Origin: Agromyces tardus
Lineage (GTDB): Bacteria > Actinomycetota > Actinomycetes > Actinomycetales > Microbacteriaceae
Assembly: GCF_003710805.1 (NCBI RefSeq)
Contig: NZ_RHHB01000003.1
Coordinates: forward strand, 124,001 to 188,000
Reading direction: 5' to 3'
DNA: 64,000 bases
Shown: one piece after another, positions 36,951 through 45,287 of the stretch
Layout: every line of letters starts with the position of its first letter
Position numbering within the stretch: the stretch's first letter is position 1
Translations under genes and position numbers: made by a program
Notes under the pieces: model-generated
Told to the model about the DNA's origin: nothing
The model's database searches: none
Seen by the model: the letters and a program-made list of their open reading frames with translations, nothing else

Positions 36951-39560
36951 CTACAGCCGGTGCACCTCGAAGCCCGCCATCGCGAGGAGCTCGGGGATGG
37001 CGCGCACCGCCTGGCGGTCGCGCTCCCTGATGTCGTCGGGGAGCTCGTCATAGGGCACGAGGTAGGGGGTGCGCCGACGCTCGACGTCGCGCACCGGGTG
37101 CTGCACCCAGCCGCCGAGCCGGCGCTCGGCGACCCAGCGGGCGTGCTCCGCGGCGGCCATCGTCTCGATCTCGGCGACGCTGAAGCGGGCGAGCGTGGGC
37201 TCGCGCCCGGTGACAGGCATGATGTCGCATCCGATCTCGCGCAGGGTCGCCGCGACATGGTCGGCCTGCCGCCGGTTGGACTCGCGCAGGTGCTCGGGCA
37301 GCGCCTCCCAACCGCGCATCGCCGCATCGTCGGGCGCCGCACTGTCGGCCTGCTCGGCGAGGTAGCGCTCGTGGACGGCGCGGCCGAGCTCCTCGCGCGA
37401 GGCGCCGAGCAGCACGTCGCGCAGCACGAGGCGCAGGAAGACCTCGGCGTCGACCTGCAGCGCGAGCTGCGGGGCCGGGGGCAGCGCGTCGGGCTCCCAG
37501 CTCGTCTGCCCGGCGAGCAGGCTCATGTCGAGGATCGCCTCCATCGACCGCGCGCCGTGCTGGTACGCGGGCACGTGCAGCATCGCTCGCAGGATCCCCT
37601 CGTCGATGCGCGCGTCGCCGTGCCCGTCGAGCAGGCGGCGCGCCTTGCGCTCGATGAGCGACCGCAGCAGCATCGCGCGGCGCACGACGTGCTCCACGTC
37701 GCCGGGGCCGGTGGGGTTCGGGCCGGCGATGTCGACGTAGCCGCGCAGCCGGCTCACGAAGTCGGGGCCCTTGACGGCGCGGAATCGGGCGAGCTTCGCC
37801 GACTCCGCGGCATCCGCTCGCCCTGACGTCGCCGCGGCCTCGGCCGTCGCCGCGGCCGACGCCCCGGCCGTCGGCTCCTCGCCGGCGAACTCCGCGAACG
37901 AGCTCGACGTGCCGCCCGCGAAGACGAAGATCGCCCGGCCGATCGGATGCGTCGCCTCGCCCTCGCGGAACTCCCCGTCCTGCATCGGCGCGAGGAAGAA
38001 CTTGAGCCACCCGAGCTCGCCCTCGAAGGCGGCATCGAACTCGTCGAAGAAGACGAGCGGCAGCTGCCCGCGCAGCACGGTGTCGCGCACGAGGTGGAAC
38101 GCGTGGTTCAGGTCCTCGGGCGAGCGCAGCTGCGAGAGGTTGAAGCTCAGGCGGCCGATCCGCACGTCGCCCGACGCACTGCCCGCGACCTCCTTCGCCA
38201 CCTGCGTCACCGCGAACGACTTGCCCGACCCCGGGGCGCCGAACACAGCCACCGACAGGGGCGTCTCCGCCGAGCCCGAGAGGTACTCCTCGATCAGGTT
38301 GCGCAGCGACCGCAGCCCCTCGATCTCGGTGCGGTCGGCCGTGCGCAGCGCCCCGAACGTGCCCACCGGCACCCCGTGCAGCTCCTCCGCCCGCGCGTGC
38401 AGCACGAGGTCGCGGGCGAGTCGCTCGAGCGCCGCGCCCGACAGGTCCTCGAGGATGCTCCAGTATCCCGGCGCCGAGGTCTCGGCCGCGGCAGGCGGCG
38501 GCACCTCGGCGCGCGCGAAGGCGTCCTCGTCGTCGCCGGTGTCGAAGATCGACGGATGCGGGAACGCATCGACGTCCGCAGCCGAACCGTAGCCCGCGCG
38601 CAGCAGCCGGCGCGCCGCCGCGAGCCCCGAGCGGATGCCGGACTCCACGAGATCCTCACGCTCCTCAGAGTCCACGGCGGCGGATGCCACGGCCCGCACG
38701 AGTGCGGCCGTGAACGCGTCGCCGCAGCCCTGCATCGCCCCGCCGTGCCGGGCCGCGAACCCGCCCTCGGCCTGCGCGGGATCGAAGAGGAGCACGCTGC
38801 GAGTCCGGTCCGGCCCCGCGCTGTAGTGGATCGCCGCATCGAGGCCGAGGCGCACCACGAGGTGCCGTGCGTTGGCGAGCGGCGCGAGCCAGCGGTTGCA
38901 GGCCATCTCCCACACGAAGTCCTTCGCGGTGCGCTCCCACGAGAGCTGTCGGCTCAGGTTCACGCCCGCGGCCCGCAGGTCGTCGGCGGTCACCACGAGC
39001 ACGAGCCGCTCGGGGTCGCGGGTGCGCAGGTGCTCCCACAGCGCACCGTCCATCAGCGGACGGCCGAGCTTGGCCACCACCCACGGGCGGGTGCCCTCGG
39101 CGGTCAGTGCTGCCGGCCAGGAGTCGGCTGCGTGCCGGAAGGAGTTGCCGGCGTCGTCGAGCACGACCACCGCGGCATCCGCTGCATCGCCGGCAGCCGC
39201 CTGAGCCGCCGCGGCGCTCGCCGCAGCGCCCTCGGCGGGGCCGCGATAGCCTCCGAAGCTGCCGACGCGCAGCACCGTCGTGCCGGTGCGACGGTCGACG
39301 GGAAACGGCGCCAGGTCCGCCATCGAGAGCAGCGCGGCATCCGACGCCTGCGGATCGGGCACCGCCGGTGCGGCCACGTCCATGCCTCCTGCGCGACGCA
39401 GCATCTCGGCGAGCAGCAGCGCTCCGCCCGGCAGCACGACCCACGACGCGCCGTCGGTGAGCTGCCAGTTCTGCCCCCGGTCGGCCGCGGGCACCCGCCA
39501 GCGCACCCAGTCGAGGCACACGTCGCCGGCGACGACCACCTTCGGCGCGGTCGGGTTCAT
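36951..39560 (-). CDS. PfkB-like kinase + AAA+ ATPase + RyR domain triple fusion
   Basis: An 869-residue protein with three recognisable modules. Residues about 5-345 are a PfkB/ribokinase-like domain (V-V-V-A-G-D-V-C-L-D-W at the start; G-C-G-D-A-F-T-A near 275 matches the GAGD anion-hole/catalytic-base motif, with Cys for Ala). Residues about 400-720 are an AAA+ ATPase with Walker A G-A-P-G-S-G-K-S near 440 and Walker B L-V-F-F-D-E-F-D near 500. The last about 80 residues form a RyR domain (A-A-E-H-A-R-W-V-A-E-R-R-L-G-G-W, P-Y-L-V-P-Y-D-E-L-P-D, A-I-P-E-L-L). No membrane segments. GGAGGA precedes the ATG at 39560. Prokaryotic RyR domains are thought to sense nucleotide-like ligands, but their role is unsettled. 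It is divergent from the DUF429 gene across an iteron-like array. Domain calls are confident; the function is unknown. Confidence 0.85.
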   Translation of the reverse strand: MNPTAPKVVVAGDVCLDWVRWRVPAADRGQNWQLTDGASWVVLPGGALLLAEMLRRAGGMDVAAPAVPDPQASDAALLSMADLAPFPVDRRTGTTVLRVGSFGGYRGPAEGAAASAAAAQAAAGDAADAAVVVLDDAGNSFRHAADSWPAALTAEGTRPWVVAKLGRPLMDGALWEHLRTRDPERLVLVVTADDLRAAGVNLSRQLSWERTAKDFVWEMACNRWLAPLANARHLVVRLGLDAAIHYSAGPDRTRSVLLFDPAQAEGGFAARHGGAMQGCGDAFTAALVRAVASAAVDSEEREDLVESGIRSGLAAARRLLRAGYGSAADVDAFPHPSIFDTGDDEDAFARAEVPPPAAAETSAPGYWSILEDLSGAALERLARDLVLHARAEELHGVPVGTFGALRTADRTEIEGLRSLRNLIEEYLSGSAETPLSVAVFGAPGSGKSFAVTQVAKEVAGSASGDVRIGRLSFNLSQLRSPEDLNHAFHLVRDTVLRGQLPLVFFDEFDAAFEGELGWLKFFLAPMQDGEFREGEATHPIGRAIFVFAGGTSSSFAEFAGEEPTAGASAAATAEAAATSGRADAAESAKLARFRAVKGPDFVSRLRGYVDIAGPNPTGPGDVEHVVRRAMLLRSLIERKARRLLDGHGDARIDEGILRAMLHVPAYQHGARSMEAILDMSLLAGQTSWEPDALPPAPQLALQVDAEVFLRLVLRDVLLGASREELGRAVHERYLAEQADSAAPDDAAMRGWEALPEHLRESNRRQADHVAATLREIGCDIMPVTGREPTLARFSVAEIETMAAAEHARWVAERRLGGWVQHPVRDVERRRTPYLVPYDELPDDIRERDRQAVRAIPELLAMAGFEVHRL

Positions 39561-39614
39561 CGGATCCTCCTCCAGCCCGCGCCAGCGTGACACGGGCGGC
39601 CGGGCGGAGACGGG

Positions 39615-39692
39615 GGACTTGGTCCCGCCGCGGGCGACCGGACTTGGTGCGCTGCGGGGCCGGACTGGAACCCGGTCGGGCGCCCGGACTGG
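39615..39692. repeat. Four iteron-like repeats in the divergent intergenic region
   Basis: GGACTTGG at 39615 and 39640, and GGACTGG at 39662 and 39686, are spaced 25, 22 and 24 bp. Each is followed by GC-rich sequence with GGGCG(A/C)C. They may be regulator-binding sites for the AAA-RyR and DUF429 genes or a decaying 24-bp minisatellite. Confidence 0.7.
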
Positions 39693-39726
39693 CACTCGCG
39701 GCGGGCGCCCGCCCTAGGATGCGAGG

Positions 39727-40488
39727 GTGCTGACCGCTGGCGTCGACCTCGCCGCCGACACGAAGAAGACCGCCCTCGCGACCATCCGCTGGAGCGCCGG
39801 CCGCGCGGTGGTCGAGCAGGTCGTGCTCGGCGCCTCCGACGAGCTCATCGTCGAGGCCGCGGCATCCGCCGACCTGACCGGCATCGACTGCGCCTTCGGG
39901 TGGCCCGACGACTTCGTGGAGTTCGTGCGCCGCCACGCGGCGGGTGAGCGGGTCGACCTCACCCGCGACCGCGGCATGGACTGGCGCCGGCGCCTCGCCT
40001 ACCGCGAGACCGACCGCGACATCCTGCGCCGCACCGGCCGCAGCCCGCTGAGCGTGGCGACCGACCGGCTCGGACTCACGGCCATGCACTGCGCCGCGCT
40101 GCTCGACGCGATCGCCGACCGCATCGGCCCGGTCGCGCGCAGCGGCAGCGGCCGCGTGGCGGAGGTGTACCCCGGCGCCGCGCTGCGCGTGTGGGGCCTG
40201 AGTCGCCCGAACTACAAGGTCGACGCGGCCGTTCGCGGCGAGGCGGTCGCCCGCCTGCTGCAGGTGGCGCCCTGGCTCGAGCTCGGGCCGACCGAGCACG
40301 ACATGGTGCGATCGGATGACGCGTTCGACGCCGTCATCGCCGCGCTGATCGCGCGGGCGCACGCCGTGGGCGGCACGCACCCGGTGCCGCCGGAGTTGCG
40401 CGAGCAGGCGGACCGCGAGGGGTGGATCGCCCTGCCCTCGGCCGCCCTCGAGACGCTCGTGGGGCCTGCCGCGGCCCGCGCCGAGTGA
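39727..40488 (+). CDS. DUF429 domain protein (predicted RNase H-like fold)
   Basis: A 253-residue protein. A-G-V-D-L-A-A-D at the N-terminus, D-L-T-G-I-D-C-A-F-G-W-P near residue 55, V-A-E-V-Y-P-G-A-A-L-R near 150 and S-D-D-A-F-D-A-V-I-A-A-L near 200 match the DUF429 pattern of a predicted RNase H-type nuclease, with acidic residues on the expected strands. The start is GTG at 39727. It is divergent from the PfkB-AAA-RyR gene, and I infer that the two work together. No experimental function is known to me for this family. Confidence 0.85.
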   Translation: MLTAGVDLAADTKKTALATIRWSAGRAVVEQVVLGASDELIVEAAASADLTGIDCAFGWPDDFVEFVRRHAAGERVDLTRDRGMDWRRRLAYRETDRDILRRTGRSPLSVATDRLGLTAMHCAALLDAIADRIGPVARSGSGRVAEVYPGAALRVWGLSRPNYKVDAAVRGEAVARLLQVAPWLELGPTEHDMVRSDDAFDAVIAALIARAHAVGGTHPVPPELREQADREGWIALPSAALETLVGPAAARAE

Positions 40489-43532: not shown

Positions 43533-43715
43533 AGCGAGCTCGGCTCTCACGGGGTGGCACAGTTCGCAACGGCGCGGAGTCGCCGTAGCATCGAAGGGTC
43601 TCCCCGCGCAGCCCCGCTGCATCCGATCCCGGATCCCCATCCGCGATCCGCCCGCACCGACCGATCCACCCGAGTCCCACCGCCCGCCGGCACCCACCAC
43701 CCCATCGGAGCCCGG

Positions 43716-45287
43716 TTGACCACCCCACCCGCCGACGAACCCCGCCGTTCGGGGTTCGTCGCGCCCGCGGCGGAGTTCGAATGGCAAGCGGCCCGCGTCG
43801 ACGAGACGCGCGCGGCAGCGCACGGCCGGCGGGCTGCGGCGCCCGCGGCGGAGCTTCCGCCGATCGAGGTGCCGCGGCATCCGCAGCACGACCGCCCGCG
43901 CTACTACCTGTCCTCCCTCGAGCCGAGCGGCGACTTCGACGAGGTCATCGTCGCGGTGTCCCACGCGGGCAGGCGGCGGTACTTCGCGACCCGCGACGGA
44001 GCGCGGCTCGCCGAGGTCGATGAGCGCGCGTTCGAGCAGCGCAGCGAGGGCGGCAGCCGTTCGCTGCTCGAACTCGACGAGCGCGAGCTGGGCGAGCTCG
44101 AGGCCGAGCTCCAGTTCGTGCGGCCGGTGCGCGGGCGCGACCCCATCGCCGAGGCGGAGGATTCCGCGGACGCCGAGGCGGAAGCAGAGGCGGAGGCGGC
44201 TGCGGCTGCGGCTGCTGCTGTGCTCACCTGGGCGGATGCCGCAGAGCCGACGGATGCCGCAGAGCCGACGGATGCTGCAGAGCCCGAGCCCGAGCGCTGG
44301 ATCGACGCAGCACCCCTGGCCGAACCCGATTCCGTGGCGAACCAACGGGCCGGCGTCGCGTATGCGGACGAAGATTCGGACGGCATCGACGATTGGGCCG
44401 AGCCGACGGCGGTCGCAGGATTCGTGGCGGAATCGCCGGCAGCGACGCCCGATCCGGACCTGCCCGCCTACGAACCGATTCCGACGCGGGCGAGCGACCC
44501 CGAGCCGGCCCCGGAGCCGGAGCCGGAGCTTCAGCCAGAGCCAGAGCCCCAGCCCGAGTTCGATCCCGAGTCCGGGCTCGACCCTGAGCTCGACCCCGAA
44601 CCAGGGCTCGACCCCGAGACCGACCCCGAGCCGGCAACCCCGGCCACGCCGGACGCCACCGACGCGCCCGTCGCCGAAGACGACGAGGATTGGACGATGG
44701 AGGAATTCGAAGCCGAGATGATGGCCACGACGACCGACCCCGCGCAGCCGTTCGAGCGGATCGACGCGGAGGCCTCCGCGCGGGTCGTCGTCGCGGCATC
44801 CGTGGCGCCCGCCGTCTTGAGCACCGCGGACCCGACGCCCGAGGTCGTCGCCGTGGCGCAGGTGTCGCTCGCGCGGGGCATCTCGTTCGTCGCCCACCGT
44901 GGACGCCTCGACAAGAGCGGCCTGCCGTACGTCGACCACCCGGGACGCGTCGCCGAGCGGTTCGACATCGTGGCGGAGCACGTCGAGGCGGCGGCCGCGT
45001 GGCTGCACGACGTGCTCGAGGACACGCCGATCACGGCCCAGGAACTGCTCGAGGCGGGCATCCTGCCCGAGATCGTCGACGTCGTGCGCCTGCTCACCCG
45101 CACCCCGGATGTCTCGCCCGACGAGTACTACGCGCGCATCCGCAGCCACCCGTCGGCGCTCGCCGTGAAGCTCGCCGACATCGACGACAACACCGCGCCC
45201 TGGCGCCTGCGCCGCCTCTCGTACGGCACGCAGGTGCGCCTCGCCGAGAAGTACGCCTACGCGCGACGCGCGCTCGGCGTCGACTGA
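43716..45287 (+). CDS. HD-domain (SpoT/MESH1-like) protein with long acidic low-complexity region
   Basis: About 523 residues from a TTG at 43716 with GGAG upstream; the frame is open from 43554 and the start is uncertain. Residues about 60-135 form a short conserved segment (R-Y-Y-L-S-S-L-E-P). Residues about 145-350 are disordered, acidic and repetitive (D-A-A-E-P-T twice, then P-E-P and L-D-P-E repeats). The last about 140 residues are an HD phosphohydrolase like the hydrolase half of RelA/SpoT: Y-V-D-H-P-G-R-V (about 405), W-L-H-D-V-L-E-D-T (about 430) and K-L-A-D-I-D-D-N (about 486). It may hydrolyse (p)ppGpp or another nucleotide. No synthetase domain. Confidence 0.75.
   Translation: MTTPPADEPRRSGFVAPAAEFEWQAARVDETRAAAHGRRAAAPAAELPPIEVPRHPQHDRPRYYLSSLEPSGDFDEVIVAVSHAGRRRYFATRDGARLAEVDERAFEQRSEGGSRSLLELDERELGELEAELQFVRPVRGRDPIAEAEDSADAEAEAEAEAAAAAAAAVLTWADAAEPTDAAEPTDAAEPEPERWIDAAPLAEPDSVANQRAGVAYADEDSDGIDDWAEPTAVAGFVAESPAATPDPDLPAYEPIPTRASDPEPAPEPEPELQPEPEPQPEFDPESGLDPELDPEPGLDPETDPEPATPATPDATDAPVAEDDEDWTMEEFEAEMMATTTDPAQPFERIDAEASARVVVAASVAPAVLSTADPTPEVVAVAQVSLARGISFVAHRGRLDKSGLPYVDHPGRVAERFDIVAEHVEAAAAWLHDVLEDTPITAQELLEAGILPEIVDVVRLLTRTPDVSPDEYYARIRSHPSALAVKLADIDDNTAPWRLRRLSYGTQVRLAEKYAYARRALGVD

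Follow-up and report, generated by a model that had tools for sequence, protein, structure and literature searches.

The window analysed here is a stretch of 64,000 nucleotides from Agromyces tardus (contig NZ_RHHB01000003.1, positions 124,001 to 188,000), and the gene that concerns us, called gene A below, occupies positions 36951..39560 on its reverse strand. It encodes 869 amino acids plus a stop, its third-position GC is strong (0.93), and a ribosome-binding site, GGAGGAGG in coding-strand letters, can be read at 39566..39573 of the same strand, serving the ATG at 39560. An intergenic gap (39561..39726) separates it from a divergent neighbour on the forward strand, a DUF429 gene of 253 amino acids (39727..40488). 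An earlier note on this DNA had described gene A as a fusion of a PfkB-like domain, an AAA+ motor with intact Walker A and B motifs and a C-terminal RyR domain, and all of these are indeed found in the single 869-aa ORF. The three parts, and the motifs within them, are given below in window coordinates and lie on the reverse strand.

The AAA+ ATPase domain covers about residues 405-700 (37461..38348) and was found both with PF00004, above the cut-off, and by structure matches, which are spread over Clp, Skd3, ORC2 and dynein. The Lys of Walker A (residues 441-448, 38217..38240), the D and E of Walker B (VFFDEFD, residues 503-509, 38034..38054) and a conserved Arg are present in all 36 members of the family.

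The N-terminal domain, about residues 3-353/359 (38502..39554), has the fold of the PfkB/ribokinase family with pseudouridine kinase as its nearest match. The GCGD that the earlier note had picked out stands at residues 278-281 (38718..38729), the position of the PfkB catalytic Asp, and the Trp of an SWE motif at residues 207-209 (38934..38942) is unchanged in 36/36 family members. An Asp in a GxGD-like context is however kept in just 2 of the 36, namely the window gene and that of the congener G305; a third Asp (L041) stands in another context, and the alignment position is less sure for the short-type relatives. The Pfam model PF00294 (PfkB) makes no call on gene A at E up to 1 and is absent among the best 25 of the 37 families listed across 31 relatives, and hhalign against PfkB gave a probability of 2.6 with all N-termini and of 59 with the long-type N-termini. 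Because the catalytic Asp is kept in so few relatives, the domain probably serves for binding and not as a kinase. A PfkB kinase working throughout the family is disfavoured by the same count, and the metabolite-modifying enzyme of the earlier note becomes doubtful, although the window gene itself has the Asp.

One could still see gene A as a metabolic nucleoside or ribose kinase with regulatory domains, e.g. for NAD or nucleoside salvage, since its fold is closest to pseudouridine kinase, the Asp is kept here and in G305, and a conserved upstream SBP-permease-ATPase-oxidoreductase-FAD cluster (gene names read by eye) adjoins the gene. We regard this as very unlikely, given the scarcity of the Asp in the family, the presence of the FAD cluster in congeners without gene A, and the patchy spread of gene A, which was found in 2 of 60 genomes in the genus (the window genome, G000, and G305). 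The cluster is found in 6/6 congeners with flanks fetched (of 12 loci returned), all of them without gene A, and a metabolic unit of the two is thereby ruled out.

The earlier note had further proposed that gene A and the DUF429 gene, as a predicted nuclease, form a two-gene system, a proposal that was to be given up if the two did not co-occur. They adjoin divergently in the window, and the DUF429 protein matches PDC-S44, a PADLOC candidate model (E 1.9e-14). Against this, a blastp search (E 1e-3) of the flanks retrieved for 34 relatives of gene A gave no DUF429 match, none of the five congeners with a strong DUF429 has gene A beside it, and in the one congener with both genes, G305, about 74 kb lie between them. 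DUF429 as a partner is ruled out by this missing co-occurrence, which makes the two-gene system extremely unlikely; the gene is a divergent neighbour, not a conserved partner.

The C-terminal RyR module, about residues 715-869 (36954..37418), was recognised with Foldseek, where the best match is human RyR3 R12 (9l9b_B) over 188 columns, and it includes a Pfam RyR domain (PF02026, residues 796-867, 36960..37175) that scores 46.7 bits against a cut-off of 27.4. A search with just the last 149 aa gives matches to human RyR2 entries (E 4.8e-14) and to 6uhi, a Bacteroides/human RyR chimera (3.1e-16). The module probably consists of two R12-like repeats, with inferred boundaries, and several relatives of gene A are without it. 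According to a 2026 preprint, phage RyR domains bind or cleave the 2'/3'cADPR made by TIRs, and phage RyR proteins degrade or sequester the TIR signal (PMC13232231). Residues H806, W809 and D848 of gene A correspond to H75, W78 and D117 of the phage protein RyDEP, an equivalence drawn from alignment to RyR repeats and from spacing, not from alignment with RyDEP itself. H806 is kept in 24/24 and W809 in 22/24 aligned relatives, and the position of RyDEP H100, which touches the ligand phosphates (residue roles per PMC13232231), is T831 in gene A and His in 16/24 relatives.

That the positions of the catalytic His and Asp of RyDEP are kept (H806, D848), together with what the phage proteins do to the signal, raises the question whether gene A ends a signal rather than receives it. 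Its RyR module would then cleave or sponge the TIR product, and gene A, as a host-encoded protein of the RyDEP kind, would damp or reset the response. We find this unlikely, since T831 replaces the ligand-contact His, a sponge needs no invariant AAA+ motor, and the full protein has no match at E 1e-5 in 50,697 phage records; moreover, of eight RyDEP homologues tested, six bound signals and none cleaved them (PMC13232231). The RyR domain of a relative does match 251 phage records at E 0.01, and at least three loci on viral contigs were matched, one of them with an AAA+ part. In plasmids, relatives of gene A were found in 2 of 72,556 records, and the RyR end alone had no match there.

The neighbourhoods of the relatives are more telling. 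The 34 relatives were confirmed from 60 stretches matched in a pattern scan, which is not a full census, and at 20 of these loci a TIR, DUF4062, SLOG-like or TrkA_N-RyR/RyR gene is at most two genes away; at 14 of the 20 the signalling-type gene lies on the same strand within 50 bp. Profile matches of the TIR, SLOG-like, DUF4062 and TrkA-RyR kinds (the last count takes in stand-alone RyR ORFs, L025) were seen in 32 of 126 near ORFs versus 0 of 239 distant ORFs over the 34 loci (Fisher p 9e-17, with each locus counted as an independent case). These neighbour HMMs were seeded from the near neighbours of the relatives, and a control was therefore run with Pfam, which is not trained on those loci. 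Among 96 near ORFs it gave TIR_2 8, RyR 7, DUF4062 6 and TrkA_N 5 times, and none of the four occurs in two or more of 120 distant ORFs (sampled from 187), among the 25 of 205 families listed; L013 and L015 were omitted from this tally as near copies of L016. Thirteen of the 34 relatives are without a signalling-type neighbour, of which three are near-identical Clostridium loci and two lie at contig ends.

The SLOG-like family had no match up to E 5 in a sequence search against PDB, so its label rests on the motifs TGHR, LAEGAD and GGT, which we take to be marks of SLOG, and on matches to SLATT/DUF4231 that stay under the cut-offs of those models. Two ThsA models match one member each among 96 neighbours of relatives, and a TIR beside RyR in G041 and G254 was found by one custom profile alone (E 4e-8 and 2e-7). 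DUF4062 genes adjoin 7 of the 34 relatives, and DUF4062 is a TIR-like NADase according to PMC13174449. Enrichment of defence islands, which the earlier note had asked about, is not seen in general with PADLOC, with 17 families in 96 near ORFs versus 30 in 120 far ORFs. The relatives often stand beside enzymes that turn NAD into signals, and gene A may therefore be a bacterial immune receptor. By way of these neighbourhoods, the idea of a conflict system with a signal-gated ATPase is supported, the two-gene system with the DUF429 nuclease is not, and the first reading of the locus as a whole is partly supported.

Among the window ORFs beside gene A no signalling-type gene was seen and no TIR is adjacent, nor were the SLOG-like/SLATT and 2TM-TrkA_N-RyR membrane partners, which accompany some relatives, seen adjoining it. 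In G305, a TIR-transmembrane gene, read from GTG, starts in a 4-bp GTGA overlap with the stop of gene A. The window genome has a single TIR_2 gene, on another contig than gene A (G000:C1:110126-110455), and in a midpoint-rooted tree it forms a clade, with support 98/95, with the G305 TIR and three TIRs found beside relatives (L019, L026 and L033). The tree used 22 of 23 genus hits, L152 giving no domain at the threshold, and has long branches for L145, L136, L025 and L137. Twenty other TIRs of the genus fall outside the clade, as do five of the eight TIRs beside the 34 relatives. The clade is present in 2/2 genus genomes with gene A and was found in 0/58 without it, a co-occurrence that comes from two genomes and takes no account of phylogeny. 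All five TIRs of the clade keep a Glu of catalytic type, presumably the catalytic residue, and a TM scan of the L033 TIR protein found no TM. The TIR is not the sole NADase candidate of the window genome, which also has three DUF4062 genes on contigs C12 and C45, away from gene A's contig region; G305 has one, also away from gene A, and SIR2_2 (PF13289) had no match in either genome.

The lack of an adjoining signalling gene in the window, with the TIR on a separate contig, could also mean that gene A lost its operon partner in this strain and is a decaying orphan. This is quite unlikely, as the ORF, the ribosome-binding site and the AAA+ motifs are intact, the third-position GC is strong, and the genome retains a TIR of the associated clade.

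Folds, motifs, neighbourhoods and the co-occurrence of the TIR clade were computed. We lean slightly towards gene A being the receptor and motor of a signalling module that is built on a TIR, uses an NAD-derived signal and probably acts against phage, with the TIR working in trans here, and the TIR protein is a likelier partner than DUF429; what we infer are the ligand, which way regulation runs, the target and a part in phage defence. A membrane-anchored TIR protein, in the window genome the single TIR_2 gene, would turn NAD+ into an ADP-ribose-type signal, which the RyR module may bind via H806, W809 and D848. The module with its signal bound would switch the AAA+ ATPase, and the PfkB-fold domain would mainly bind nucleoside or ribose, or serve in docking, rather than act as a kinase. 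The ATPase could then remodel a target directly, or the output might pass via membrane partners (SLOG-like/SLATT, 2TM-TrkA_N-RyR).

Several observations count against a TIR module: no signalling-type gene adjoins gene A in the window and the TIR is on a separate contig, the genome has further NADase candidates in its DUF4062 genes, thirteen of the 34 relatives have no signalling-type neighbour and several no RyR module, T831 stands in place of the phosphate-contact His, PADLOC shows no general enrichment, the co-occurrence comes from two genomes, five of the eight TIRs beside relatives fall outside the clade, and the L033 TIR protein shows no TM.

Direct sensing of cyclic ADP-ribose by ryanodine receptors is a long-standing question, and a bacterial RyR module beside NAD-processing TIR enzymes offers a tractable test system for this recognition. 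The preprint notes that a role of cADPR in the function of RyR has been proposed, and it calls for studies of this kind (PMC13232231). Such a bacterial module would also bring a new receptor class to TIR-based immunity and a host counterpart to the phage RyDEP story. Our tentative suggestion, which we would not call probable, is that bacterial tandem-RyR modules may act in the host as receptors for the cyclic ADP-ribose signals that TIRs make, mounted on several actuators (AAA+ with PfkB-fold, 2TM-TrkA_N), and that the animal link between cADPR and the ryanodine receptor may descend from that bacterial immune pairing. In the limited collection of literature searched we found nothing on PfkB-AAA+-RyR fusions or host RyR-TIR operons, and an earlier description is possible; a word search for bacterial RyR fusions in PMC7159879, PMC8195603, PMC3482391 and PMC7016017 gave nothing.

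The closest kind among known systems is Thoeris-type signalling. As in Thoeris and other TIR-cADPR anti-phage systems, TIR genes stand beside relatives of gene A, the spread is patchy, and a receptor domain for an ADPR-type signal, by analogy in gene A, is joined to an actuator. The presumed receptor is however RyR and not SLOG/Macro, the body is AAA+ plus PfkB-fold, and the TIR, adjacent in G305, is in trans (contig C1) in the window genome. Swarozyc, the system of DUF4062 NADases, is alike in the DUF4062 genes adjoining relatives, but is described as assembling with the phage portal, and the text of that paper does not contain the string RyR (PMC13174449). The N-terminal fold is shared with the PfkB/ribokinase family (pseudouridine kinase, ribokinase, HldA), but the gene A family is mostly without the catalytic Asp and the Pfam model makes no call. 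The module resembles the R12/R34 repeats of animal ryanodine receptors, as its match to the human RyR3 structure indicates, but it belongs to an AAA+/PfkB-fold protein and not to a calcium channel. Phage RyDEP is of the same RyR family (PF02026), and its H, W and Asp ligand positions are kept in gene A; RyDEP proteins are however phage counter-defence glycosidases or sponges (PMC13232231), whereas the RyR of gene A, which lies on a bacterial contig, forms one protein with an AAA+ ATPase and has a Thr for one contact His.

Relatives of gene A (window 36951-39560, minus strand; an 869-aa fusion of a PfkB fold, an AAA+ module and a C-terminal RyR domain) were obtained from a pattern scan of genome contigs, and at 20 of these 34 loci a TIR, SLOG-like, DUF4062 or TrkA_N-RyR/RyR gene lies at most two genes away, in 14 cases co-directional and either no more than 50 bp away or slightly overlapping. 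Counted by locus, the neighbours are TIR at eight, SLOG-like at eight, DUF4062 at seven and TrkA_N-RyR/RyR at seven. Signalling-type ORFs make up 32 of the 126 near ORFs, whereas there are none among 239 farther ones (Fisher p 9e-17). With Pfam alone the near ORFs (n=96) give TIR_2 8, RyR 7, DUF4062 6, TrkA_N 5 and NACHT 5 times, and each of these families has fewer than two matches in a sample of 120 distant ORFs. At L043, which would be a 21st such locus, the neighbour is a SIR2-TPR protein of 2268 aa, and a SIR2 family gene is found near the relative on a Methylobacterium plasmid, separated from it by a transposase gene and one further gene; 13 of the 34 loci have no neighbour of TIR, SLOG-like, DUF4062, TrkA_N-RyR or SIR2 kind. 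Judged by their record titles, loci with such neighbours include Deltaproteobacteria, Hydrogenedentota, Dehalococcoidia, Anaerolineales, Clostridia-type and Bacteroidota-type bacteria, Coriobacteriales, Thermoleophilia and two Alphaproteobacteria. PADLOC, used for the defence-island check that the earlier note had proposed, found no broad defence enrichment near the relatives.

The same note had proposed gene A and the divergent DUF429 gene (window 39727-40488, plus strand) as a two-gene system, which we reject. DUF429 has no match (blastp E 1e-3) among the flanking ORFs of any of the 34 relatives, in flanks of up to 8 kb that are often shortened by contig ends. It matches in 8 of 60 genomes of the genus, strongly (59-78% identity) in five besides the window's own, and in none of these five is gene A found in the surrounding 17-18 kb; in G305, the congener that carries gene A, the two are about 74 kb apart. 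One congener (G341) has DUF429 beside SDR, HxlR and HD genes as in the window, named by eye, without gene A, and the cluster on the other flank (SBP, permease, ATPase, oxidoreductase and FAD genes, also named by eye) is kept in all six congeners with fetched flanks, all lacking gene A. Gene A is therefore a sporadic gene, and the two blocks on either side of it also occur in its absence. It is present in 2 of 60 genomes of the genus, the window's and G305; 3 of 299 genomes in the family sample match, G041 and G254 through the RyR end only, and 20 of 396 in the phylum sample match its profile, beyond the C-terminal module only in the window's own genome and G367. Among PADLOC's candidate models, PDC-S44 matches the DUF429 gene itself (E 1.9e-14), and an HD-type protein at window 43554-45287, RelA/SpoT-like by eye, has a long acidic, proline-rich repetitive stretch.

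In G305, gene A terminates in GTGA, inside which the gene that follows, of TIR-proline-rich-TM type, can start. TIR_2 matches only once in the window's genome, on contig C1, and the protein there has the TIR-linker-TM layout that the G305 TIR shares. In a 32-domain TIR tree both group with the gene A-adjacent TIRs of loci L019, L026 and L033 (support 98/95), and 20 other TIRs of the genus fall outside this five-member clade, which is found in both gene A carriers as against none of the 58 other genomes of the genus (chance 1 in 1770, phylogeny ignored). All five keep the Glu of the NADase position. The TIRs next to the relatives L021, L024, L025, L031, L035 and L091 (two) lie on other branches, so the pairing is not limited to one type and the partners of gene A are TIRs in general. 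Beside the relative at L019, the TIR protein (L019:10840-13626) has a predicted TM segment, InlB-like repeats and an SBP_bac_5 part, and is receptor-like with a presumed peptide-binding outer domain.

According to a 2026 preprint (PMC13174449), DUF4062 is a TIR-like NADase. The window's genome has three DUF4062 matches (G000:C12:18369-28186 and G000:C45:90537-90782), possible TIR-like NADases, and the C1 TIR is for that reason not its sole possible NAD consumer. A single match in G305 lies far from gene A, and neither genome has a SIR2_2 match.

RyR domains also occur in other architectures. A second one beside gene A relatives is the TrkA_N-RyR protein, for which about two TM segments are predicted (L032:2740-4512, L019:5693-7462, L036:6546-8213, L026:2581-4236, L030:6696-8345), and in G041 and G254 a TM-bearing RyR protein (L063:8102-10765, L064:8513-10891) adjoins a frame matching a TIR profile built here. 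At L096:916-6961 a DUF4062-NTPase frame of 1400 aa precedes a RyR protein of 581 aa; nothing in the 9.2 kb examined there matches gene A. L093:1550-4845 holds a frame with three RyR-like matches and, on the opposite strand, a 164-aa RyR ORF, a TIR match lying about 5 kb away. One gene A relative, L030:8367-10727, has RyR matches at both its N-terminus and its C-terminus.

The PfkB domain had been taken for a metabolite-modifying enzyme, and this is doubtful: the window and G305 proteins have the GxGD-type Asp, but they are just 2 of 36 (L041 also shows an Asp there, the third of the column, but in a different context), while the SWE-motif Trp and the checked AAA+ residues are kept in 36 of 36. 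Over the GxGD region, long-type N-termini align with five PfkB kinases of the window's genome at hhalign probability 59 (E 9e-5), as against only 2.6 for all N-termini pooled and 0.4 or less for five unrelated profiles. We read the domain as a putative unit for binding or docking; the Asp-keeping branch may have kinase activity.

A 2026 preprint (PMC13232231) shows cleavage or binding of 2'cADPR and 3'cADPR by RyR domains of phages, and gene A could likewise act as a terminator that cleaves or sponges the TIR product, a role that we think rather unlikely. The best-supported reading is a chain in which a TIR would give an ADPR-type signal, passed by the RyR module to an AAA+ switch and so to an output. 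Fold, motifs, neighbourhoods and TIR co-occurrence are the computed part of the case; the ligand, the direction of control, the target and phage defence are inferred. The phage residues named in that preprint are H75, W78, H100 and D117, and in an alignment of 24 proteins the first His is kept by 24, the Trp by 22, a third-position His by 16 and the Asp by 20. By alignment with RyR repeats and by spacing, the equivalents in gene A are H806, W809, T831 and D848, and the substitution at T831 may give it an altered affinity or specificity.
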